Part shown: positions 1 to 56,268 of the stretch, one piece after another
How the letters are laid out: each line of letters starts with the position of its first letter
How positions within the stretch are numbered: the stretch's first letter is position 1
Source: Zopfochytrium polystomum
Lineage: Eukaryota > Chytridiomycota > Chytridiomycetes > Chytridiales > Chytridiaceae
DNA length: 64,000 nucleotides
Reading direction: 5' to 3'
Assembly: GCA_025765615.1 (NCBI GenBank)
Contig: JAIVFJ010000177.1
Coordinates: 1-64,000 of the forward strand
Made by a program: the position numbers and the translations under genes
Notes under the pieces: model-generated
Told to the model about the DNA's origin: nothing
The model's database searches: none
Seen by the model: the letters and a program-made list of their open reading frames with translations, nothing else

Positions 1-2
1 CC

Positions 3-254
3 ATTCCAGGCAGAGTTGTTCCTCCTCCTCCTCCAGTTGAGGTAGAAGGTGAAGAGGAATTTGAGGTTGAACAAATCTTGGATGCCAAGTGGTTTGGAAG
101 GACACTCAAGTTCCTTGTTAAGTGGAAAGGTTACTCAGATGCTGACAACACCTGGGAGCCTGAGTCAAACCTCACTCACTGCCAAGACCTTCTGCTCGAG
201 TTCAAGACCAGGTACCCCACCAAGTTGCAGAAGAGGCCTAAAAGGGGGAGATGA
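3..254 (+). CDS. 3' end of a Ty3/gypsy pol gene, chromodomain (partial)
   Basis: The frame is open from the window edge to a TGA at 252-254 that directly abuts the LTR at 255. It encodes the Pro-rich linker and C-terminal chromodomain of a chromovirus integrase; key residues are the aromatic cage-type positions in FEVEQILDAKW and the KWKGY and NTWEPE motifs. The same segment recurs at the end of elements 1 and 2. In this family the chromodomain steers integration toward modified histones. The 5' part lies outside the window, so this is the tail of a third copy (element 0) joined to element 1 through a shared LTR. The last codons form a purine tract (AAAAGGGGGAGATGA) that probably also serves as the polypurine tract for plus-strand priming. 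Confidence 0.9.
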   Translation: MPGRVVPPPPPVEVEGEEEFEVEQILDAKWFGRTLKFLVKWKGYSDADNTWEPESNLTHCQDLLLEFKTRYPTKLQKRPKRGR

Positions 255-273
255 TGTTATGAATCACCCTCTG

Positions 274-381
274 GAAACCTCTGGAACCTTCTAGAACATT
301 CCTTCATGGAACCTTCTGGAACCTTCTGGAACCTTCTAGAACATTCCTTCATGGAACCTTGTGGAACCTTCTGGAACCTTC
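274..381 (+). promoter_or_regulatory. Phased heat-shock-element array in the LTR (22 modules)
   Basis: The U3 part of the LTR is a run of 22 five-base modules in one unbroken register, starting every 5 bp from 274 to 379. Eighteen are exact GAA or TTC cores; the exceptions are CTC at 279, TCA at 304 and 349, and TTG at 359. Modules 309-346 form eight consecutive alternating perfect units; GAACCTTCTAGAACATTC is part of it. nGAAnnTTCnnGAAn is the established binding site of the heat-shock transcription factor. The array ends 110 bp upstream of the TATA box. Equivalent arrays lie at 2871-2978, 5639-5746, 8369-8476 and, inverted, in 8607-8959. Confidence 0.8.
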
Positions 382-491
382 TTTGCTTTCCTGACTTGTC
401 TTGTTGTCATTGGTATCATTGGTATCATTGTATTACTAATTGCTCTTTCTGGAACTTTCTTGGAGTCTTGACAAGGAACACTCTCAAAAGG

Positions 492-537
492 TATAAAAGG
501 GGGATGGGGGACCTGTCCCATCCCTCAAGTGAATTAT
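492..537 (+). promoter_or_regulatory. LTR TATA box and predicted transcription start
   Basis: TATAAAAG lies at 492-499. The predicted RNA 5' end is near 529, where GTGAATTAT (529-537) is the exact complement of the primer-binding site at 610-618. The 37-bp spacing from TATA suits a fungal promoter. The start site is an inference from that complementarity. Confidence 0.6.
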
Positions 538-607
538 TGTTTCCAATACAATCATCACTCCTCTCAGTTCCTTGTCTGCCTTGTCCTGTCCTGCCCTGTT
601 CCTGACA

Positions 608-618
608 TCATAATTCAC
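608..618 (+). other. Probable self-priming primer-binding site
   Basis: Directly after the LTR come two bases (TC, as expected for bases trimmed by integrase) and then ATAATTCAC at 610-618. This is the reverse complement of GTGAATTAT at 529-537 in the same LTR, close to the likely RNA 5' end. No tRNA 3' end with TGG is apparent. The same arrangement is at 3205-3215 in element 2. It matches the Tf1/sushi mode in which the RNA 5' end folds back as primer. Confidence 0.55.
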
Positions 619-647
619 TTCACCCTCTCCCACTACTCTCTGCCATC

Positions 648-2851: not shown

Positions 2852-3204
2852 TGTTATGAATCACCCTCTGGAAACCTCCGGAACCTTCTAGAACATTCCT
2901 TCATGGAACCTTCTGGAACCTTCTGGAACCTTCTAGAACATTCCTTCATGGAACCTTGTGGAACCTTCTGGAACCTTCTTTGCTTTCCTGACTTGTCTTG
3001 TTGTCATTGGTATCATTGGTATCATTGCATTACTAATTGCTCTTTCTGGAACTTTCTTGGAGTCTTGACAAGGAACACTCTCAAAAGGTATAAAAGGGGG
3101 ATGGGGGACCTGTCCCATCCCTCAAGTGAATTATTGTTTCCAATACAATCATCACTCCTCTCAGTTCCTTGTCTGCCATGTCCTGTCCTGCCATGTTCCT
3201 GACA
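2852..3204 (+). repeat. Family-A LTR (copy 2), 5' LTR of element 2
   Basis: It starts TGTTATG and ends CTGACA, with the same heat-shock modules (2871-2978) and TATAAAAG near 3089 as copy 1. It is followed by the same TC plus ATAATTCAC primer-binding site. Confidence 0.93.
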
Positions 3205-4168: not shown

Positions 4169-5619
4169 GGGGCAATTCCCTGGACCCTCCTCCAAGCTGC
4201 CCCTGTTTCATCACCACCACCAGCACCACAAACACCTCAGATTCCAAGCCCCACCAACTCACCATGGATGTCAAGATTCAACTCTCACCCAAGTCAACCA
4301 TCACAACCAAGGCCCTTATAGACTCTGGATCATCCTGCAACATCATTGATGCCACCCTTGCCAAGTCTTGTGCCATTCCTACAATCAAGAAATCCACACC
4401 CCTCAAGGTCCACTTTGCCAATCATTCTCTGTTCAAGGAAATCAGCCATGAAACCAAGCTAAACCTCCACATCCAAGACTTTCCACCATCCATGGTCAAT
4501 CTGGAAGTATTGGATCTTGGCTCACCCACATTCTCTGTCATCCTGGGATTACCATGGCTGCAAGCCCAGAACCCTGCCATTGATTGGGTCACTGGTCAAG
4601 TCCAACCTCCACCAATCGGAACAGTCACCCAAAACTCAAGTCAAGCCCCCAAGTCTCATGCTCTCAAGCCCTTGATTCAAGATTCACAGCCAGCCAAGAC
4701 TCAAGTTCCACAGTTCACAGTTCACAGTCAAGATTCAAGTAGAGCTCATAGAGCTCACAGTCATGGCCAAGACTCTAGTTCACAGAACCCACAGTCAAAG
4801 ATTCAAGTACCACAGTTCACAGTCCACATTCAAGATTCAAGTTCCACAGCTCACAGTCTTTGCCAAGAACAGAACTCTCAGTCAAAGATTCAAGAATCAC
4901 AGTTCCCAGTCAAGAATTCATGCCCCACTGCTGATGAGCACAGAAGGACAGACCTTGCACCTGAAGGGGGAGATGGTTTCACCCCACCATCCAAGACACA
5001 CCTTTCACTGCTTCCTGACAGTGTGTGGGCCTATGCTATTTCCAAGGACCCCAAGCCTCACAAGATTCAAATCAGCCAAGAAGAGGAAAAACTTGAGATA
5101 CTCAAGACAAGGCATGATGCAGCAACAGCTGGACACCCAGGAGAGCACAAGACATATGAGCTTGTTTCCAGAGACTTTTACTGGCCAGGCATGAGGAAGA
5201 ACTTGCAGACCAAAAGACCAAGTCCCAAGCTAGACAACCACAAGTTGGGACCTTTCAAGATCTTGGAGCAAATCAATCCAGTCACCTTCAAGCTGGATCT
5301 CCCTGCATCCATGAAGATCCACCCAGTTTTCCATGTCATCCTTTTGGAGAAGTTTGTGGCCAATTCCATTCCAGGCAGAGTTGTTCCTCCTCCTCCTCCA
5401 GTTGAGGTAGAAGGCGAAGAGAAATTTGAGGTTGAACAAATCTTGGATGCCAAGTGGTTTGGAAGGACACTCAAGTTTCTTGTTAAGTGGAAAGGTTACT
5501 CAGATGCTGACAACACCTGGGAACCTGAGTCAAACCTCACTCACTGCCAAGACCTTCTGCTCGAGTTCAAGACCAGGTACCCCACCAAGTTGCAGAAGAG
5601 GCCTAAAAGGGGGAGATGA
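4084..5619 (+). CDS. Deleted pol of element 2 (protease - integrase ends - chromodomain)
   Basis: The frame is open for 511 codons and has no ATG start of its own; it overlaps gag in the -1 frame, so it is probably made by -1 frameshifting in 4084-4168 (no canonical slippery heptamer is obvious). In order: aspartic protease with ALIDSGSSCNIID (from about 4309), a Ser/Gln-rich linker, a fusion to the RNase H/integrase junction (RRTDLAPEGGD), the integrase zinc-binding segment cut after FYWPGMRK, then the integrase C-terminal region and the chromodomain (KWKGYSDADNTWEPE). RT, RNase H and the DDE core are absent. Both junctions keep frame. Ends at TGA 5617-5619, abutting the LTR. Confidence 0.85.
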   Translation: MFLLWLQGACCQGLPKEEAPKLPGPGSLRGNSLDPPPSCPCFITTTSTTNTSDSKPHQLTMDVKIQLSPKSTITTKALIDSGSSCNIIDATLAKSCAIPTIKKSTPLKVHFANHSLFKEISHETKLNLHIQDFPPSMVNLEVLDLGSPTFSVILGLPWLQAQNPAIDWVTGQVQPPPIGTVTQNSSQAPKSHALKPLIQDSQPAKTQVPQFTVHSQDSSRAHRAHSHGQDSSSQNPQSKIQVPQFTVHIQDSSSTAHSLCQEQNSQSKIQESQFPVKNSCPTADEHRRTDLAPEGGDGFTPPSKTHLSLLPDSVWAYAISKDPKPHKIQISQEEEKLEILKTRHDAATAGHPGEHKTYELVSRDFYWPGMRKNLQTKRPSPKLDNHKLGPFKILEQINPVTFKLDLPASMKIHPVFHVILLEKFVANSIPGRVVPPPPPVEVEGEEKFEVEQILDAKWFGRTLKFLVKWKGYSDADNTWEPESNLTHCQDLLLEFKTRYPTKLQKRPKRGR

Positions 5620-5972
5620 TGTTATGAATCACCCTCTGGAAACCTCTGGAACCTTCTAGAACATTCCTTCATGGAACCTTCTGGAACCTTCTGGAACCTT
5701 CTAGAACATTCCTTCATGGAACCTTGTGGAACCTTCTGGAACCTTCTTTGCTTTCCTGACTTGTCTTGTTGTCATTGGTATCATTGGTATCATTGCATTA
5801 CTAATTGCTCTTTCTGGAACTTTCTTGGAGTCTTGACAAGGAACACTCTCAAAAGGTATAAAAGGGGGATGGGGGACCTGTCCCATCCCTCAAGTGAATT
5901 ATTGTTTCCAATACAATCATCACTCCTCTCAGTTCCTTGTCTGCCATGTCCTGTCCTGCCATGTTCCTGACA
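5620..5972 (+). repeat. Family-A LTR (copy 3), 3' LTR of element 2
   Basis: It follows the purine tract AAAAGGGGGAGATGA, starts TGTTATG and ends CTGACA; the target duplication AGATG follows. It carries the heat-shock array (5639-5746) and TATA box. Confidence 0.93.
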
Positions 5973-8357
5973 AGATGCAAATACGGTCACTTTGAGTACT
6001 TGGTCATGCCCTTTGGACTTACCAATGCTCCAGCTATTTTCCAAGGCATGATGAATGACATCTTCAGGGATATTCTGGACCTTTTTGTCATTGTCTACCT
6101 GGATGATATCCTGGTATTTTCATCTGACACTGCAAGCCATATGGGACATGTCAAGACTGTCTTGGAGAGTCTCAGACAGCATCACCTCTATGCAAAGCTG
6201 GAGAAGTGTGAATTCCACAAGACCTCCATTGAGTTTTTGGGGTTCATTGTGTCTGACAAAGGGATCTCCATGGCACCAGACAAGATCCAAACTATTCTTG
6301 AATGGAAGGCTCCAAATTCCATCAAGGATGTTCAAAGCTTCCTTGGATTTTGCAACTTCTACAGAACCTTCATTGCCAACTATTCTGCCATAGCCAAGCC
6401 TCTCACTGATCTCACCAAGAAGACCACCAAGTTTGAATGGACCCCAGCAGCAGAGCAAGCCTGGCTAGCTCTTAAGACAGCAACCACAAGTGCACCACTC
6501 CTTAAGCATGTGGATCCCTTGCTTCCCTTCACCTTGGAAACTGATGCCTCAGACTATGCCCTTGGCGCTGTTCTGTCCCAGCCAAGCTCTCAGGACCCCT
6601 CTGCTCCTCTGCATCCAGTGGCATATTACTCCAGGAAGCTGAACAGTGCTGAGTGTAACTACACAGTCCATGACAAGGAGTTGCTTGCAATTGTGGAAGC
6701 ATTCAAATTCTGGAGACACTACTTGGCTGGTTCTAAAAACATCTCTGTCTATTCGGATCACAAGAACCTCACCTTCTTCAGGGCAAGGAGGTTGCTCAAG
6801 CAGAGGCATGCCAGGTGGGCTGAACTGCTCTCTGAGTATGACTTTAAGCTGTGCTATTCTCCTGGCCACCTTAACACTGTGGCTGATGCCCTGTCAAGAA
6901 GAACAGACCTTGCACCTGAAGGGGGAGATGGTTTCACCCCACCATCCAAGACACACCTTTCATTGCTTCCTGACAGTGTGTGGGCCCATGCTATTTCCAA
7001 GGACCCCAAGCCTCACAAGATTCAAATCAGCCAAGAAGAGGAAAAACTTGAGATACTCAAGACAAGGCATGATGCAGCAACAGCTGGACACCCAGGAGAG
7101 CACAAGACATATGAGCTTGTTTCCAGAGACTTCTACTGGCCAGGCATGAGGAAGTACATCAAGAACTATGTCAGCAGCTGTGAAACCTGTCAAAGAAACA
7201 AATCCAGCAGACACAAGCCCTATGGACTTCTGGAGCCCCTCCCAATTGCCATCAGCCCTTGGTCATCAATATCCATGGACTTCATTGTGAAACTGCCCCC
7301 ATCCCATGGATTTGACTCTATCCTTGTTGTCATCTGCAGAAGGACAAAGTTGGCCCATTTCATCCCCTGCACTGAGAATATAGATGCACAAGGAACAGCA
7401 GACCTGTTTTTGCAGCACATATTCAGGCTCCATGGGCTGCCTCAGTCAATCGTCAGTGACAGAGGACCACAGTTCAGATCTCAATTTTGGAAAGCACTCA
7501 CAGCAGCCCTTGGAATCAAGTCTCAACTGTCAACTGCTTATCACCCTCAGACTGATGGACAAACAGAAAGAACAAACCAGACTCTGGAGCAGTATTTGAG
7601 GTGCTATGTCAGCTATCAACAGGATGATTGGCCCACCCTCCTTCCACTGGCAGAATTTGCTCTCAACAATTCTCTCCACTCAAGCACCCAGCTATCTCCT
7701 TTCTTTGCAACCTATGGCTTCAATCCAAGAGGAGATCTTCTGGGACAAGAGACCCTATCCAATGTCCAAGCTCCTGCTGCGGCTTCACACTTACATAAGC
7801 TCAAGATCATCAGCACCTTCCTGGACTCCACCCTGAAGCAAGCCCAAGAAGATGCCTCAAGATTTGCCAACACTCACAGAATGGACCATGACCTTGCTGT
7901 GGGTCAGCAAGTTTGGCTTCTGAGGAAGAACTTGCAGACCAAAAGACCAAGTCCCAAGCTAGACAACCTCAAGTTGGGACCTTTCAAGATCTTGGAGCAA
8001 ATCAATCCAGTCACCTTCAAGCTGGATCTCCCTGCATCCATGAAGATCCACCCAGTTTTCCATGTCAGCCTTTTAGAGAAGTTTGTGGCCAATTCCATTC
8101 CAGGCAGAGTTGTTCCTCCTCCTCCTCCAGTTGAGGTAGAAGGTGAAGAGGAATTTGAGGTTGAACAAATCTTGGATGCCAAGTGGTTTGGAAGAACACT
8201 CAAGTTCCTTGTTAAGTGGAAAGGTTACTCAGATGCTGACAACACCTGGGAGCCTGAGTCAAACCTCACTCACTGCCAAGACCTTCTGCTCGAGTTCAAG
8301 ACCAGGTACCCCACCAAGTTGCAGAAGAGGCCTAAAAGGGGGGAGATGATGTTATGA
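5973..8357 (+). CDS. Element 1 pol, C-terminal part: RT, RNase H, integrase, chromodomain
   Basis: About 794 codons continue element 1 from the insertion point (the open frame extends back into the LTR). Visible parts: RT palm with FGLTNAPAIFQ and the YLDD catalytic box (VIVYLDDILVF); RNase H with TDASDYALGAVLSQ and KELLAIVEAFKFW; integrase zinc finger with the HHCC residues ending SSCETCQR; integrase core with SMDFIVKLP, VSDRGPQF and TDGQTERTNQTLEQ giving the D,D,E triad; a GPF-type C-terminal module (KLGPFKI) and the chromodomain. An extra G before the end (8341 region) shifts the last residues, so the stop is at 8355-8357 inside the 3' LTR. Separated from its start by element 2, it is not expressed as one protein. 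Confidence 0.9.
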   Translation, partial: RCKYGHFEYLVMPFGLTNAPAIFQGMMNDIFRDILDLFVIVYLDDILVFSSDTASHMGHVKTVLESLRQHHLYAKLEKCEFHKTSIEFLGFIVSDKGISMAPDKIQTILEWKAPNSIKDVQSFLGFCNFYRTFIANYSAIAKPLTDLTKKTTKFEWTPAAEQAWLALKTATTSAPLLKHVDPLLPFTLETDASDYALGAVLSQPSSQDPSAPLHPVAYYSRKLNSAECNYTVHDKELLAIVEAFKFWRHYLAGSKNISVYSDHKNLTFFRARRLLKQRHARWAELLSEYDFKLCYSPGHLNTVADALSRRTDLAPEGGDGFTPPSKTHLSLLPDSVWAHAISKDPKPHKIQISQEEEKLEILKTRHDAATAGHPGEHKTYELVSRDFYWPGMRKYIKNYVSSCETCQRNKSSRHKPYGLLEPLPIAISPWSSISMDFIVKLPPSHGFDSILVVICRRTKLAHFIPCTENIDAQGTADLFLQHIFRLHGLPQSIVSDRGPQFRSQFWKALTAALGIKSQLSTAYHPQTDGQTERTNQTLEQYLRCYVSYQQDDWPTLLPLAEFALNNSLHSSTQLSPFFATYGFNPRGDLLGQETLSNVQAPAAASHLHKLKIISTFLDSTLKQAQEDASRFANTHRMDHDLAVGQQVWLLRKNLQTKRPSPKLDNLKLGPFKILEQINPVTFKLDLPASMKIHPVFHVSLLEKFVANSIPGRVVPPPPPVEVEGEEEFEVEQILDAKWFGRTLKFLVKWKGYSDADNTWEPESNLTHCQDLLLEFKTRYPTKLQKRPKRGEMML

Positions 8358-9064
8358 ATCACCCTCTGGAAACCTCTGGAACCTTCTAGAACATTCCTTC
8401 ATGGAACCTTCTGGAACCTTCTGGAACCTTCTAGAACATTCCTTCATGGAACCTTGTGGAACCTTCTGGAACCTTCTTTGCTTCCTGACTTGTCTTGTTG
8501 TCATTGGTATCATTGGTATCATTGTATTACTAATTTCTCTTTCTGGAACTTTCTTTGAGTCTTGACAAGGAAGACTCTCAAAAGGTATGAAAGGGGGATG
8601 GGGGACTGTCAGGAACAGGGCAGGACAGGACAAGGCAGGCAAGGAACTGAGAGGAGTGATGATTGTATTGGAAACAATAATTCACTTGAGGGATGGGACA
8701 GGTCCCCCATCCCCCTTTTATACCTTTTGAGAGTGTTCCTTGTCAAGACTCCAAGAAAGTTCCAGAAAGAGCAATTAGTAATGCAATGATACCAATGATA
8801 CCAATGACAACAAGACAAGTCAGGAAAGCAAAGAAGGTCCCAGAAGGTTCCACAAGGTTCCATGAAGGAATGTTCTAGAAGGTTCCAGAAGGTTCCAGAA
8901 GGTTCCATGAAGGAATGTTCTAGAAGGTTCCAGAGGTTTCCAGATTGTGATTCATAACAGCGACCTGTCCCATCCCTCAAGTGAATTATTGTTTCCAATA
9001 CAATCATCACTCCTCTCAGTTCCTTCTCTGCCTTGCCTTGCCTTGTCCTGCCATGTTCCTGACA
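8350..9064 (+). repeat. Family-A LTR (copy 4), 3' LTR of element 1, split
   Basis: The two halves are 8350-8606 and 8960-9064, separated by an inverted LTR. It keeps the heat-shock modules (8369-8476), but TATAAAAG has become TATGAAAG, and it has several small losses. It is the most decayed of the LTRs in this block. Confidence 0.88.
8607..8959 (-). repeat. Inverted family-A solo LTR inside the 3' LTR of element 1
   Basis: It reads TGTCAGGAACAGGG to GATTCATAACA on the + strand, a full 353-bp LTR on the minus strand. The flanking 5 bp are GGGAC (8602-8606) and GCGAC (8960-8964), a target duplication with one change. With the surrounding LTR it forms a near-perfect inverted repeat. Confidence 0.88.
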
Positions 9065-19695: not shown

Positions 19696-19767
19696 TGGAG
19701 GCACAGGGGATCGAACCCTGGGCATCTCGCATGCGAAGCGAGCTATCTACCACTGATATATACCCCC
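19696..19767 (-). tRNA. tRNA-Ala (CGC anticodon)
   Basis: On the minus strand all four stems form: acceptor GGGGGTA/TGCCTCC, D stem TATC/GATA, anticodon stem CTCGC/GCGAG around loop TTCGCAT, and T stem CAGGG/CCCTG around TTCGATC. The anticodon is CGC. The D stem differs from the usual GCTC/GAGC by compensating changes, which supports a working gene. No intron. Confidence 0.88.
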
Positions 19768-21724: not shown

Positions 21725-24700
21725 AATCTCATCCTAAAGGGGTCTTTTAACCTGCCGTATGTTGAGCAAGTGTTTATTTGCGTACGTCAAGCTCAAAGAC
21801 ATAACAAATAACAACATCCACAGTTTCTCAATCACCCCACCATCGTAATGCTGTCAAATTCCATCAGGGAACGCTGTAAATGAATTGAAACTGCGCACCA
21901 CCTAACAGAAGCAGTGGCCTGTGCAATGTTCGATAATAACATCAACTTCCGCTAACTTTAGCGTGTCGTTAAATATATGAACAAATGTGTCTGAGTCCAA
22001 TTCCAGTTCAACTTGCACAATGGGGCAAGCCCTCACTGATTGTTTTTCAAGTATTAACTGTGGGGAAGATGAGGGAGTTGGGATCATTTTCAGCTTCCTC
22101 ACTTGGGAAGAATTTGGAAGAAGATTTGTGTGCCCAGCAAGTGCAGGATATTGTGGGTCATCAGTCACCTCATAACATCTTCCAACACTGTCTGTTGGAG
22201 TTGACTTTTGAAATTTGATGCATGTGAAAAATACTTCAGAGACCCCTAGGCATTTAAGCTGTTCTCGCTGTTCAGAATCCTCTGGTCTGGTGGTTGAAAA
22301 TTAGGGTTTCCAAAGTAATTTCGATCTCACCATAATATCCTTCAACTGCAGATGGAAAACTTGTGAGGACGACAGGCTGTCGAGCCTGTGACCTCAAATA
22401 AATTAAGTGTATACCCACTTTTTAACTGGTAATTGTGAGGATTACCACCCCGTCTCGACCCGCGTTTTGCTGGCAAAACGTGACTAGGCTTGGATTCCTA
22501 CTCTCTTATTATTTATTGGGTTTCCATACGGCCTTTGACTGGCTCTGTATGTCTGCCTCTGAGCTCTACTATTATTACTTATTATTGGCGATGTTGCAGA
22601 CAGAAAGACTCAGTCTTGCTTCTAATTGCTGATCAAGGTTCCCTTGCTCAGTGGTTAGAGCGCTCCCTTCAATTGGGAAGGTGCCAAGTTCAAGACATGC
22701 TAGTTGACAGACTGGGCAGAAATGAAAAGTCCTACTATGCCTGGCCAACGGCCCCTTACTTTTGGAAATGACTTAGGACTGAAACACTTCTGTGGGAGAA
22801 GTGCTAAGCCCAGATGGACAGAGTTAACAAGATGATGGCAGAGCTAACAAGCCCTACCACCTGCTACCATGATGTAATACCTCATAAAAAGGGTATGAGA
22901 TCACAGGGTTTTTCTTTATCTTTTCATTGATGATTTTTACTTATTTTTCCAATTAGTAATTTATCCTGTTTTTCCTGTTTTTCCTGTTTTCTCTTTTATT
23001 TATTCCTTGTTTGTCTCTGTCTGTGTCTTTTCTTTCTTGTGTGGCTGAGAGTGACTGTCTTCTTATCTGCACCAATCATTTCTTGCCAGCCCTCTCCCTA
23101 CTGTTTGCCAAGAAATGCCCCATGATTCTCTGAGCTGTCTTCCTTGTTTGATGGCTCAGCCCCATTGTTTGGTGACTCACTCCTCCTCTCTCTTCTTTGC
23201 TGTTTTATTTATTGTTTTGTTCTTTTGTATATGTTTTCCCCTCTTTTCCCTTCCTTCTTCCTTCACCCTGCTGATTCCAACCCTTTCCTATTTAAGCAGC
23301 TGCCCCCCATCTTGTTGACTGTGAGAACCTGTGCCTGAAGTCCCTTGCCTGCCCCTTTCTTCCTGACTGTATGTAGAGCTGGGGGTGGCAGTCCCCTGGT
23401 GTGTGACAGGAGGTTGAAGTCCTCTTGGCCATGATGGCAGTGTGCTGGGTTCAAGCCCCAGTGCACCTCACCAATTCTGCATGCTGCTTAGGTTGGACTG
23501 GGTAGGAGCCACTTGGTGATGGAAGGATGGAGGGTAAATCTGTGGTGGTGCCTCTAGGTTCCTGTCAATACATCTAGTCAAATCCAGGTCTCTCAAGGGG
23601 ATATGAATGAGCTGTCTGGTCAGGTACTGCTGCAGGAATGGTCTCTCAGGTATGCCCCCTCCTCCCTGGTTGTTGGCTCCTGTGGCCTCTGGTGGGCCTG
23701 GTCTTCACTGGGTTCAGACCCTCTTTCTCTCAGATTAATGCCTGTGATGTCATGGTGCCACATTTGGGTGAGGGAGTGGGTGTTAACCTTCCTTGCTTCT
23801 AAGATAGGGAATTCCTCTGGCTTGGTGAAGCAGATGTCTGTGTCCTAGTAGGATGAAGTAAGAAGAGTCCCACTGTCTCCCACCCCTGTGTGCCCCCTCC
23901 TTGGATTGAGTTGGAACTTCTCCTTGGAGTGAGACAAGTTGTGTCTGGTTCTGTTAAGTGGAAAACAGTTCTGATTTAATTCAACAGACACCTCTGCACA
24001 CTAACTGTTCCTTGTGTTTGCCCTTTGTGTCCAACCCCCTCCAACTTAGGGCTTGTCTTTGACAGAGAGGGAGCCTTGCTCCATGGTGGTGGCTCCAACA
24101 GACCGGGGTCTGGCCACTTTCCTCCCCACTCTCTTGTCTTCTTCAGTTGGATTGGAGTGCTGCACTTAGTGCCGCTCCCTGGAGCTTGCTGCATCTTGCA
24201 CCTCCAGCATTGTTACTGGATTTCCCGGTCCCCTTTGGCTTTGGCTTTTGCCTCCCATTGGGCCCACTCTGTGTCATGGACCAGAGAACCCTGCACATTC
24301 TTTGCTGGTGTGCCACCTTTTCACAGTTGCCTTTGGTCTGAGTGTGAGAGTCTTCTCTTTGTGTGTAATAAGAGAGTTTCTTTGTGTTTCTTGGGCTTCT
24401 TAAGACTCCAAATACATTGTCCTGTCTAGTGACCCCTAGACATCTCCTTTTTGCCCTTTTTCAGGATTGGTATTTAGGCCATTGCTCTATTTGCCACCCA
24501 TAGCCCAGGGTGAGGATTTAGAGAGCACAGTCTCACAAACTTCATTAATTCTTAACATCAGAAAGAAGAGAATGGTGCAAGCACCAAGGGCTGCAACAAC
24601 GAATGGGTCACTACAAGCCAGGGTTACAAGGTAAGCAACTTCTTTTCATCAACTTCTTTTGAAGCGTGTAAATTCCTTTCAATTCTCTGTGCCAACGTTT

Positions 24701-25222: not shown

Positions 25223-25294
25223 TCCCAGTTAGTATAGTGGCTAGTATCACCCCCTGTCACGGGGTAGACCCGGGTTCAATTCCCGGACTGGGAG
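25223..25294 (+). tRNA. tRNA-Asp (GTC anticodon)
   Basis: Acceptor TCCCAGT pairs with ACTGGGA, with G as discriminator. The D arm GTATAGTGGCTAGTATC is typical of eukaryotic tRNA-Asp. The anticodon loop TGTCACG gives GTC, and the T arm CCGGGTTCAATTCCCGG is perfect. No intron. Confidence 0.93.
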
Positions 25295-26522
25295 CATTCA
25301 GTGCATTTTAGTTAAGTGTATCTCTTTGGCTTGCTGGTCAACCCTCGTAGTTTCTAGATGAGCCACCGATACGAATCAAATGCGGATTTGGGCAAGGTTC
25401 ATTTTGATTTGACATTTTATGTAAACTCATGATCCCAATGAGCTTCAGATTTTTAAATTTGACAAGCTCATGACTTTTAGTCAAATGTGATCAAATTTGA
25501 ACAGACATGTACTAATTCAGATCGAGTATCTTCACAAAAAGGCTGACACAGGTCCCATTCGAGCATTCGACTTGGTCCAAATATTTGTGACTTCCGACTA
25601 TGGCTCTGTTGGAGTTTGCACACATTACCCATACCTTTCTCTGACCTGCCTTCAAGAGTAAAGATGAGTTAAGATGGCATCCGGGCTGGTCCAATGTTAT
25701 CTACACTGTACAAGTGCTTAGCGGTGGTTTCGATCCCCAGTCTGGGTAGACCACTCAGTGTGCTTCACTCTACCAATTTGACAGGAATGATTACAGGAGC
25801 TTGATAGGGAGCCTGACTTACTTCTTTTCACACATAACTCCATGGAAGTTCTGGCCAAATCAGTGTGATGCAACAATGATGTCATGCCTGCCTCCTGACT
25901 CCTCAAAGTCTAAACTCTATCTCTCAGAGCTAAAAGGCTATCACCAAAAGTCTGATTCCTGAGACCACCTGCAGTATAAAATGGGGAGCCCCAGCAGCTC
26001 CAGAGAAGCATCATCCCAGATCCTGATCACATCTGCCTGCTCTCTCTCTACCCTCAAATACAACAAACAAAAACCATTATTCTTATCTGAGTCAACATAC
26101 CCTCTACCTTGACCTGCGAAGCTCTTCAAGTTCTACCTTGGGTCGATACCTCGTTCGTATAGGGCGCTTTGCTCTTACAAGAAAAGGGTGTGCTCTGCAC
26201 CCTAAACAAGAATATCTGTCTGAGAGCACCCGCTCTCCATCTGCTATTGGTAACAAAGGGCACTTCGCTCTTAACACGAAAAGGGCTCACGCTCTAAACA
26301 AGCTTTCTTGCTCCACGCCAACTCAGTCTGGTGGTGCCCTTTCGACACACCAAGCGCAATCACCAACAGGCTCGATTTGTGGCGGGCCTGAGGCAGAGGC
26401 TCAGGTTAGCGAGGGAGGCATCTCTGAGGCACAATTCAGGAGCCCACTTACCAGGCACTATGAGGTCTTTGGTGGATATGGCCACGATGTTGGTGCCAGA
26501 GGTTGAGTGCAGTTGCTGGTGA

Positions 26523-28216: not shown

Positions 28217-31457
<3,241 letters not shown>

Positions 31458-38903: not shown

Positions 38904-39211
38904 TGTTATGAATCACCCTCTGAAAACCTCTGGAACCTTCCAGAACATTCCTTCATGGAACCTTGTGGAACCTTCTGGAACCTTCTTTGCTTTCCTGACT
39001 TGTCTTGTTGTCATTGGTATCATTGGTATCATTGTATTACTAATTGCTCTTTCTGGAACTTTCTTTGAGTCTTGACAAGGAACACTCTCAAGAGGTATAA
39101 AAGGGGGATGGGGGACCTGTCCCATCCCTCAAGTGAATTATTGTTTCCAATACAATCATCACTCCTCTCAGTTACTTGTCTACCTTGTCCTGTCCTGCCC
39201 TGTTCCTGACA
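38904..39211 (+). repeat. Family-A solo LTR, short form, target duplication GCCAT
   Basis: It starts TGTTATG, ends CTGACA, and is flanked by GCCAT at 38899-38903 and 39212-39216. At 308 bp it is 45 bp shorter than the other copies because one nine-module block of the heat-shock array is absent. The TATA box (TATAAAAG) is intact. It disrupts the minus-strand element gene. Confidence 0.93.
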
Positions 39212-52866: not shown

Positions 52867-55473
52867 TAACACATCATCACACACACTCACCCTCCTGCAC
52901 GTCGCCAAGGTACGCCTCATGCGGATCGTACGTCGGGTCCGTCCGCTTCCGCTTCTTGCCGCTCCCGTTCCGTCCACCGCCGCTCCGCCGCGGCCGCCGC
53001 CGTCCGCCCGCGCCACCACCACCACCGTCGTCGTCATAGTCGTCATAGTCCGCACCACCCCCGCCGTCATCATTGTCGTCGTCGTCGTCGTCGTCCTCGC
53101 CGTCCTCGCGCTTGTAAGCGACGTCGTCGCCGTCGTCCGTCGGACTATATGTCGACTTCGTAGCCGCCGTCCCCGCCGCCGTCGCGTCTTCGTACACGCC
53201 AACGTCGTACCCTCCGTCGTCGTCGTCGTCAAACTCGTCATAGTAGTTGTGCTCGCCCGAATCCCCCCTTCCCCCTCCTCTTCCGCCCCTGCCGCGTCCA
53301 CGGCCGCCCTTCGGCTCCGACAAGCTCGCAATGACCGCCAGCGCGTTGAGGCTCGTCGCCGCCGCCGCCGCCGCCGCCCGTTTCGACTTGAGCGGCGGCC
53401 GACGCCGCCGCGCTGCAGCTGCTGCCCCGCCCGTCTCGTCTGCCGCCGCGTCCTGCCGCCCAAGAAGCTGCGCGAGCACGTGCGCGGGGAGTTCCGGCTT
53501 GCCGCCGATCTTGCGGTAGTACTTCTCGAGCACCGTCGGATCCTATATTTTTTTTTTTTTTTTTTGAGTTTTGCGATACGTGAGACGTGTGTGTGATTTG
53601 CAGAGGTTTACATACGCAAGCCCCCCACGCACCGATCTCTTCTCCCTCTCACCTGAAAGTTCTCCTCCGGCTCCCACGTGTCGTCGCCGGCGCCCCACCC
53701 TTTCCACCGCACCCGGTACTTTACGATGAACTCGCCGTCCTCGCGCTCGTCCACCCAGTCGTGCGACACTATCTTTTCCACAACGTACACGTCGTTGGCG
53801 ACCGCACCGCCGTTGGCGTCCTTTGCCGCCGCCGACTCCGCCGAGTCGCCGCCGTCGAGCGGCTCGCCGTCAGGTCCGACCCCGAGTTCCGAAAGGAGAC
53901 GCGGCACGGCCGGAGGACCAGGAGGTAGTAACCCTTTCTCCTTCAGCTCGCGCATCATCTTGTACTTTGCGAGCCGCGCCGCCGTCGCCGCCGCCGTGCG
54001 CTCACGCCCGGTTTGCCTGGCGCCGGACTTCGCTCGGGGCTTTCTGGCCGAAGACGACGACGACGAGGAAGAGGAGGAAGACTTTTTCGGCCGGCGCGCC
54101 GGTGTTGTTGTCGTCGTCGAAGTGGTCGCCGGCGGCGGCGGCGGCGCCTCGACGGCGGTGGTGGTGGTGGAGTCACCGGCGCCCGCATCCGCGCCGCAGA
54201 GTGGCGCGTCGTCGTCGTCGTCGTCGTCGTCTGCGCGCGCTTCCGCCCCGTCCCCCGTCGTCGTCTCAGTCGCGTCGTCCTCCCGCCGCCGCATCAGCAC
54301 ATCGCCGCCGGCCCCGTCGTCGTCGTCACCAATGCCGTTGCCACCGCCGCCGCCGCCGCCCAGCGCAGCGCCCATGACGGCGTCTACAAACGCGGGCGCC
54401 CCCGGATCGACCGGATCCGCCCAGTCGGCGTTTGGGGCGTCTGCAGCGTCCGCGTCCGCGGGTCCTGCTTCGGAAACGTCTCCCCCGTCGCCGCCGCCGG
54501 TGGCCGTGCTGCGCGGGATCGCAAACGACGGCAGCGGCGGCGGCGCCTTACCCCTTCCGTCGCCAACGGCAACCCCACCCCAGCCACCGCCACCACCACC
54601 ACCCCTGCCACTAGCGCTGCCGACCGCGTTCATGTCCAGAACGTCCTCTAGCTGCAGCGTCGCGGGGTTCCCAGCGTCCACCAAAGCTGCCGACGACGAA
54701 GGCGACAACAATGGTGGCGGCGGCGGCGTCGGCGAGGACGGGAAGGGCACCGTGTACGACGCGGAGCTGTCGTCTGGCTGCGGTGCCAAAGAGCTGCTGC
54801 TGCTGCTGCTGCCGCCGTTAGGCATCTGCGGAGATGGTGGCGTGAAAGAAGAGGAAGAAGAAAAAGAAGAAGAGGAGGTGGTGGAGGACGAAGATGCAAA
54901 GGATTCGGCAAACGACGGAAGCGATTGGAGCGAGGGTGCCGGCGCGTCCTCGTCGTCGTGGTCGCCGTCGTCGTGGTCGCCGTTGGAGCCGGAGTAGTTG
55001 GCGTTGTTGTCGTCGCGCGGCGGTGGTGCTCCCGACGGCGACGACGGCCACGACGACGACAACGAGAGGTCCTTCGTTTCGCCATCGTTGGCGTCCGATT
55101 CCGCGGGACGTTGCTCCGCTCCGTTCGAGTCGCCGGCTGCACGCGCACTTGTCGATCGCTCTGGCCACGACGTCGTTGTCAACGTCTTCAAGGGCCCTGC
55201 TTCTTCGGATTCGGATTCGGAGGAGGGGGAGGAGGAGGAGGAGGAGGAAGTTGTGCGATCCAGTTTGCGGGGCGGCGGCGGCGGCTGCGGCTTTGCCGTG
55301 CTCCTGCTGGTCGCCGTCGGCTTTGGCGGCGTCGTAGTGGTGGTGGTGGTGGTGGTGGTGGTGGTCGTCGCGAGCAGCGACTTTGGGTTGAGCGGCAGCT
55401 TGAAGGCAGAGCCGGAGGCACGGGAGGCCAAAGATGAGGAGGAGGAAAGAGTAGACGACGACGACGACGATGA

Positions 55474-55509
<36 letters not shown>

Positions 55510-55794
55510 TAAAGAAGAAGGGGGCTTCCAGCCGGTAAAGTGGCGGCCCATGCCGAGCCGCTTCTTTGGCACCGGCGGCGTTGGTGGGGGGGGAGTAGGG
55601 CGCGTGGTGGTGGTGTTGTTGTTGTTGTTGTTGTCAGAAGCAGAAGGGGAAGCAGGCCGGCTCTTGTTGCTGTTGCTGGTTGCTGCGTCCACCGCCGCCG
55701 CTGCTCCTGACGAGGACGACGAGGACGAGGACGAGGAGCGGGTCGACCACGACGCCGCCGCAGCCCTCGACGCCCTCGACGCCGAGGACACCAT
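51559..55794 (-). CDS. HP1-like protein with chromodomain and chromoshadow-like domain
   Basis: Five exons read from the right: 53653-55794, 52891-53542, 52012-52718, 51823-51861, 51559-51603 (3585 nt, 1194 residues), all GT/AG and in phase. Start ATG 55794 (MVSSASRASR). Residues 1-660 are Ser/Thr/Pro/Asp low complexity with poly-Ser, poly-Asp and Gly runs. The chromodomain (about 670-714) has DVYVVEKIVSHDW, KYRVRWKGWG and DDTWEPEENF, with aromatic-cage residues Tyr, Trp and Trp in place. The middle has KKKRKVEAE and other basic nuclear signals. The last about 75 residues (NWDPFLQEVV, YLIVLRW, ETLLDYFWRNVRLRN) fit the chromoshadow fold used for dimerisation. It probably reads H3K9 methylation. 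Canonical HP1 is about 200-500 residues, so this one is several-fold larger. Confidence 0.82.
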
Positions 55795-55916
55795 TATTGT
55801 TTGGGCCTTTTTAACCCTTTTTTTTCTTTTCTTTTTCGGTTTCTTTATTGTGCGTCTGTGTGTGTGTTGGTGGTCCTTCTCGCGAAAGCCTGTCTCTCTG
55901 TCTCGGTCTCTGTCTC

Positions 55917-56268
55917 TGTGTTTGTGGGTGGTCCTTCTCCCCAACTTTGAAAGAGAAAAAACTCTGTTATGAATAATTGATACATAATGATGATATGCAC
56001 ATTGTAATAGTTACTAGGCAAGCGTGACGGGAACAGGGTAAAAACCTCTCCTATATTATCTGCTTGAGCAGAGGAGGAAATCTGTTGACACTGGGTTTCT
56101 GCTCCACTTAATACTCAGAGTATTTGTCATCAGCACAAGCCAGTGCCCAGGTCTTCATTGGCAGTGGCTTGCTCTCGCATGGGCATCGTGAGAACGATAA
56201 CTGACAGTCACAATAGGTTCGGGTCCGTCTTGTGCCTCTTGCTGCTAACCAGTCAGTTCCACCTAACA
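55917..56268 (-). repeat. Truncated family-B LTR upstream of the HP1-like gene
   Basis: It matches the family-B LTR from TGTTTGTGGGTGGTCCTTCT to CCTAACA; about 60 bp of its 3' end (left side on the + strand) are missing. A segment like its edge (TGGTGGTCCTTCTCG) is repeated at 55867-55881. It points in the same direction as the HP1-like gene and ends 123 bp before its ATG. Confidence 0.85.

Follow-up and report, generated by a model that had tools for sequence, protein, structure and literature searches.

The phased array and its retroelement

The window, that is, the whole stretch of 64,000 nucleotides analyzed here (contig 177, positions 1–64000, of a host genome of 80.16 Mb in 761 contigs), opens with copies of a retroelement whose long terminal repeat (LTR) carries a long phased array of heat shock element (HSE) modules, and this array is the subject of the present report. 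Self-comparison of the window showed that the region from 1 to ~8960 is made up of tandem and broken copies of one LTR element, joined into a chain in which LTRs are shared (Table 1). The open reading frames (ORFs) of the element encode gag, aspartyl protease, reverse transcriptase (RT), RNase H, integrase and a chromodomain, and the domain order in 5937–8357 (PF00078, PF17917, PF17921, PF00665 and PF00385) is that of a chromovirus; judged from these domains, the element is a Ty3/gypsy chromovirus, that is, a chromodomain-bearing one. TG...CA ends and a short target-site duplication (GCCAT) were found at the one locus examined for them, the solo LTR at 38904–39211. Genome-wide, a 49-base piece of the R region had 2127 matches at ≤3 mismatches. 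The three proteins closest to the 806-aa ORF were 68–71% identical to it, and nearly all listed matches to the pol protein were unnamed or labeled hypothetical protein or transposase. The chain of copies closes with an LTR facing an inverted LTR (8350–8610 vs. 8959–8607).

When positions 273–382 were read in fives, 22 modules were found in a single 5-bp register, 18 of them with exact GAA/TTC cores, and the four inexact ones were CCTCT, TTCAT (twice) and CTTGT. Eight perfect modules alternate without interruption, with their cores at 309–346. When the LTR was shuffled 5000 times with dinucleotides kept, no 22-module register held more than 8 cores and no alternating run exceeded 4, and these maxima were unchanged when the array alone was shuffled 5000 times. 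The array was thus confirmed as the original prediction had described it: 22 modules in one register, 18 exact and eight alternating at 309–346. Alternating nGAAn modules in 5-bp phase are the established binding site of heat shock factor (HSF), and at least three of them make a canonical HSE, compared with the run of eight in the window copy.

The modules are not all independent, because the array consists of ~2.6 copies of a 45-bp, nine-module unit (Tandem Repeats Finder gave periods of 10, 35 and 45). A form of 13 modules without this duplication also occurs in the family; it usually holds 10 exact cores, above the shuffle maximum of 8, and its alternating run of 4 was seen in 1 of the 5000 LTR shuffles. 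This unduplicated form, too, exceeds chance.

Pattern scans were then compared with expectation. A six-module pattern at ≤2 mismatches gave 22 window matches vs. 0.02 expected, and a four-module pattern at ≤1 mismatch gave 38 vs. 0.27 expected; the listed window matches to both patterns all lay within copies of the array-bearing LTR. The exact six-module pattern had 2188 matches per strand across the genome, while the same pattern read backwards had none. With the usual spacers barred, the six-module variant yielded 13 sites at 13 loci, each matching the array-bearing LTR at the site, and the four-module variant yielded 71 genome sites vs. 2 in the control, about 4 of the 50 listed being unlike the LTR as judged by eye. 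A 29-base piece of the array had no exact match in viral_contigs.

Length forms and promoter anatomy across the family

Eighty LTRs were fetched, in contig order, from the first 100 listed places of the 49-base scan, a sampling that needed an exact match to the 49-mer outside the array and so favored younger copies. A recognizable U3 start was present in 74 of the 80 and not in the other 6. Among the 74, the array had 13 modules in 37 (40 including those one base longer), 22 modules in 16 and 31 modules in 4, and other lengths in 14. The main length classes are spaced 45 bp apart, the length of the tandem unit, so that the array has the repeat unit and copy-number variation of a minisatellite. 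A perfect alternating run of at least 3 modules was found in all 74 LTRs, of at least 4 in 73, of at least 6 in 25 and of 8 in 21. The array had been claimed to recur in every full LTR of the family; this nearly holds for a phased run of at least four modules (73/74 sampled LTRs), but not for the 22-module form (16/74), which is contradicted already within the window by the short form in the solo LTR at 38904–39211.

Fifteen LTR pairs were picked by spacing, and the 14 comparable ones differed by 1–9 mismatches over 293–345 aligned bases; judging from these mismatches, the elements are young. In three of the 14 pairs, each presumed to be a single element, the two LTRs differed in length by 90 bp (L052/L053), 45 bp (L091/L092) and 10 bp (L047/L048). 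The array appears to have grown by duplication, with the window copy as the middle form. When the non-array parts of two short-array LTRs, L040 and L031, served as queries, the listed matches belonged to this family (87–94% identity, the query itself aside), and no older separate clade was found among them. Of 18 short array pieces drawn from the two match lists, 11 held at least 9 cores in their best register and the other 7 held 2–4. In L031, L034, L038 and L040 the array is short and its second module exact; this was considered as the ancestral form and set aside as not independent evidence, the loci having been picked by the six-exact-module pattern.

The original prediction had also placed the end of the array 110 bp upstream of a TATA box, and this was borne out by the distance from 382 to the TATAAAA at 492 (~110 bp). 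Of the 74 sampled LTRs, 70 had a TATAAA within the final 60 bases of their U3 stretch, so the arrangement of an HSE in U3 above the TATA box, as in the mode of the Arabidopsis element ONSEN, was found across the sampled copies of the family. Just past the LTR end at 607, positions 610–620 are the exact 11-nt reverse complement of 527–537; when the 25 bases after the LTR were shuffled 5000 times, a match of at least 11 nt arose in 9. In Tf1 and Tj1 of fission yeasts, such a match is the self-primer, derived from the 5′ end of the RNA that is complementary to the primer-binding site (PMC4600332; this and the other papers are cited from the part of their text that was available). The chytrid element has a complementarity of this kind, over 11 nt, between a putative transcript end and a putative primer-binding site, and differs from Tf1/Tj1 in its array, no HSE array being mentioned in the available part of that paper (PMC4600332). 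Since the self-priming match, by the Tf1/Tj1 precedent, marks the RNA 5′ end, the transcript would start near 527, ~35 nt below the TATA box, where RNA polymerase II (Pol II) would be expected to start.

Heat-shock genes of the host genome, and further features of the window

To judge from one protein, the host is most likely a chytrid: the proteins nearest to the cullin gene at 29507 are from chytrids (Nowakowskiella, 64%; Podochytrium, 66%). A search of the host genome for HSP20 gave 33 matches at 20 loci, the first 13 of which (L127–L139) were read upstream of the start codon. In 11 of these 13 small heat-shock protein (small-HSP) regions, an HSE of the form GAA-NN-RTC-CA-GAA-N-CTTC was found, with 11 of 12 core bases, 31–75 bp above a TATA box; its four-module score was reached by 0–3 of 200 shuffles for each region. 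Between groups of these genes, the upstream 300 bp are only 45–55% identical, and the main surviving blocks are the HSE and the TATA box. The small-HSP genes of this host are numerous, and HSE and TATA are their main conserved upstream blocks. The remaining 7 loci (L140–L146; partial or split matches) were covered by a three-module scan only, which found sites in 4 of the 7, at distances not reckoned from a start codon. Four of these loci, L140–L143, form a second HSP20 group, in which a three-module HSE (reading ATTCCAGAAATTTCT or the complement of this) stands several hundred bases away from the HSP20 match.

A search for the HSF DNA-binding domain returned 14 matches in the host, four of them whole or nearly so, and one of these domains (stretch NNFSSFVRQLNMYGFHKV) matched the solved chains of HSF1, HSF2 and other HSFs with E values of about 1e-24 to 1e-26. 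The loci L009–L015 hold several HSF-type genes, which fall into at least two sorts; three are of the first sort, one of them in two near-identical copies. The host therefore has HSF genes together with the same HSE at heat-shock genes, in 11 of 13 small-HSP regions but not convincingly at two HSP90 genes. The three-module sites scanned in the HSP90 loci were rejected as promoter HSEs, since they lay inside or downstream of the genes once these were oriented.

Elsewhere in the window, ARAGORN predicted a tRNA-Ala (19696–19767), a tRNA-Phe (23381–23469) and a tRNA-Asp (25223–25295), of which the tRNA-Ala and the tRNA-Asp are also backed by Rfam. A large GC-rich ORF on the minus strand (53608–55944) has a PF00385 chromodomain match near its C-terminus and is apparently separate from the retroelement.

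Table 1. Coordinates of the retroelement copies and of the promoter features within them
Feature	Position	Strand	Basis
LTR holding the array, TG...CA, 353 bp	255..607	+	window self-comparison
HSE array in U3, 22 phased modules, 18 exact	273..382	+	register count; tandem periods 10 and 45
Eight consecutive perfect alternating nGAAn/nTTCn modules	308..347	+	pattern scan and register count
TATA box TATAAAA	492..498	+	sequence; TATAAA common to 70/74 sampled LTRs
Putative transcript 5′ end (self-primer), start of R	527..537	+	exact 11-nt reverse complement of 610–620
Putative primer-binding site, Tf1-like self-priming type	610..620	+	complementarity to 527–537
3′ end of pol with chromodomain, upstream element copy	1..254	+	1–607 vs. 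5366–5972 at 98.8%; ORF ending at 5619 has PF00385
Second LTR copy, 22-module array	2852..3204	+	self-comparison, pattern scan
gag ORF, 307 aa	3245..4168	+	PF03732
Third LTR copy, 22-module array	5620..5972	+	self-comparison, pattern scan
ORF, 806 aa: RT (part), RNase H, integrase, chromodomain	5937..8357	+	domain matches
LTR copy truncated at 3′ end, array present	8350..8610	+	self-comparison, pattern scan
Inverted LTR copy with array, 17 exact cores	8607..8959	-	self-comparison, register count
Solo LTR, short 13-module array, 9 exact in-register cores, flanking 5-bp duplication GCCAT	38904..39211	+	self-comparison

Explanations of the array and related elements

Read from its sequence, the array is best explained as part of an HSF-driven, stress-inducible LTR promoter (probability about 0.72), and the element is probably active under heat or protein-damage stress. 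Under such conditions, host HSF trimers would bind several sites of the array side by side, ~110–220 bp above the TATA box, and the bound HSF would drive Pol II transcription from ~527; the 5′ end of the resulting RNA could then serve as the primer for reverse transcription of that RNA, which would give rise to new insertions. Tandem duplication would have lengthened the array in nine-module steps that keep the register. The interpretation in the original prediction, of a heat-activated chromovirus, gains from the chromodomain-bearing Ty3/gypsy proteins, the nGAAn array above the TATA box, the host HSF genes and the HSEs of the small-HSP genes, and it has to give up the ubiquity of the full array and, as set out below, part of the novelty.

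Several results weigh against an HSF-driven promoter. Among the host genes, two of the 13 small-HSP loci read upstream (L127 and L129) have no HSE, several of the 11 HSE-bearing regions are near-identical copies of one another, and the two HSP90 genes have no convincing HSE upstream, their best three-module sites having 2 and 1 mismatches and lying >500 bp above the anchor exon. The gap of 110 bp between array and TATA box is also longer than the 31–75 bp of the small-HSP genes. Further, the cores were compared with the rest of the LTR in 79 rows (the 74 sampled LTRs and 5 from the window), of which 3 were dropped for a differing start word and 15 for belonging to length classes of <4 members; the four 31-module LTRs, with one spacer change among all of them, were left unpooled, and the pooled test covered the 13- and 22-module classes (38 and 19 LTRs). 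In favor of the promoter, 5 distinct changes within the array fell on 84 core sites vs. 15 on 70 spacer sites (Fisher p = 0.007), and all three distinct changes at inexact modules turn a core exact. However, the cores (5/84) did not differ from the LTR outside the array (26/304 distinct changes, p = 0.50), while the spacers (15/70) were elevated against it (p = 0.005), and exchange between repeat units that share cores and differ in spacers would give the same pattern. Purifying selection on the cores is therefore not claimed, as the contrast between cores and spacers lost most of its force against this control, and selection on them is unproven.

An HSF, or a divergent protein of the HSF family, might instead bind the array as a constitutive or life-cycle activator (in zoospores, at encystment or under oxidative stress) rather than as a heat switch. 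The presence in this genome of several HSF-type genes, of two or more sorts, would suit such a role, and long high-affinity HSE arrays can be occupied without stress; but the small-HSP genes share the motif, which points to the ordinary stress pathway, and we consider this alternative unlikely. Somewhat less probable still is a neutral minisatellite, in which a 45-bp GAA/TTC unit was spread by unequal exchange with no binding role. Four results agree with it: the 45-bp tandem unit is clear, the length classes are separated by 45 bp, conservation of the cores does not exceed that of the remaining LTR, and the two LTRs of three presumed elements differ in length by 10, 45 and 90 bp. Against it, the commonest form (37–40 of 74) is unduplicated and already a canonical HSE with a four-module run, the array stands at promoter distance from the TATA box, and the host's own genes follow the same grammar.

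That the array acts in RNA is very improbable. In this reading, the transcript would include U3 at its 3′ end, and a long GAA/TTC hairpin there could affect 3′-end formation or stability. The fold z-scores of −4.1 (266–382), −2.7 (308–347) and −3.4 (the short form, 38915–38990), with +0.3 for the adjoining U3 stretch 383–482, would fit a hairpin, but an array of alternating inverted modules is expected to fold in this way, and pairing alone needs neither the GAA/TTC letters nor a likeness to host heat-shock promoters. Binding by a DNA-binding protein unrelated to HSF is the least probable of all, as alternating nGAAn modules in 5-bp phase are the HSF site and the footprint at the host small-HSP genes agrees.

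The proposed HSF-driven promoter belongs to a known kind; what looks new is how large the array is and the length series it forms, together with the host and the scale of the family. Among fungal elements, MAGGY of Magnaporthe is also a chromovirus, and we know of no comparable array in it. Heat shock, copper and oxidative stress are reported to activate MAGGY (Ikeda 2001, cited in PMC3978060), and the terms 'HSE' and 'heat shock element' are absent from the main text of PMC3978060. In Cryptococcus, the LTR elements TCN3 and TCN12 mobilize at 37°C and have putative HSEs in their LTRs; TCN3, like the chytrid element, is of the Ty3/gypsy type, but its putative HSEs number two and the isolates studied contain two full-length copies of it, and TCN12 has one putative HSE (PMC12810828), compared with a long phased array and >2000 LTR matches in the chytrid family. 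The original claim that a heat-controlled fungal chromovirus would be new was therefore overstated, being preceded by the reported heat activation of MAGGY (PMC3978060) and by the putative HSEs of TCN3 and TCN12 (PMC12810828), as far as the available parts of these papers go. In the literature searched, which left most subscription journals outside, we found no fungal element whose LTR is demonstrably driven by HSF, and a 2026 paper states in its available part that heat-shock-induced activation of mobile elements through the host machinery is still undescribed in fungi (PMC12810828). In fungi, the link between heat and LTRs has until now been a matter of suspicion more than of proof.

Outside fungi, ONSEN of Arabidopsis is heat-activated through HSFA1/HSFA2 and shares with the chytrid element HSF as the driver, a predicted one in the latter, but it is a copia-type plant element with a heat-responsive element for which HSFA2 binding and HSF-dependent induction have been shown (PMC3907296), whereas the chytrid element is a Ty3/gypsy chromovirus of a fungus and has 13–31 modules, with a predicted response to HSF. 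DIRS-1 of Dictyostelium is also a retroelement, and its terminal repeats contain a heat-shock promoter (Zuker 1984, cited in PMC2685390), but these repeats are inverted and the host is an amoeba. The Helitrons of Caenorhabditis resemble the chytrid family in that a mobile element holds most HSEs of the C. elegans genome, but they are DNA transposons, with HSF-1 occupancy and effects on nearby genes reported (PMC6927752).

By extrapolation from the sample (25/74 × 2127), ~700 LTRs would have an unbroken run of at least 6 perfect modules. The small-HSP sites read in the host consist of four modules and have a single defect; from this comparison, the majority of the strong HSF sites in the genome, and perhaps almost all of them, may lie in one element. 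It is a long shot, and we offer it as speculation, that the family took over the heat-shock wiring of its host: longer arrays may have been selected for winning HSF first, the LTRs would be both an engine of heat-driven amplification and a sink by which the host response is damped or shifted in time, and neighboring genes would receive heat-shock promoters from solo LTRs. The family offers a natural test case, with one promoter type in ~2000 LTR copies and a series of 13, 22 and 31 modules, in which the dose of HSF sites can be compared with RNA output within one genome. Proof of an HSF-driven LTR here would close the gap described in the available part of PMC12810828, and, if the HSF-driven promoter is confirmed, genome growth in such a fungus would be tied to temperature stress.
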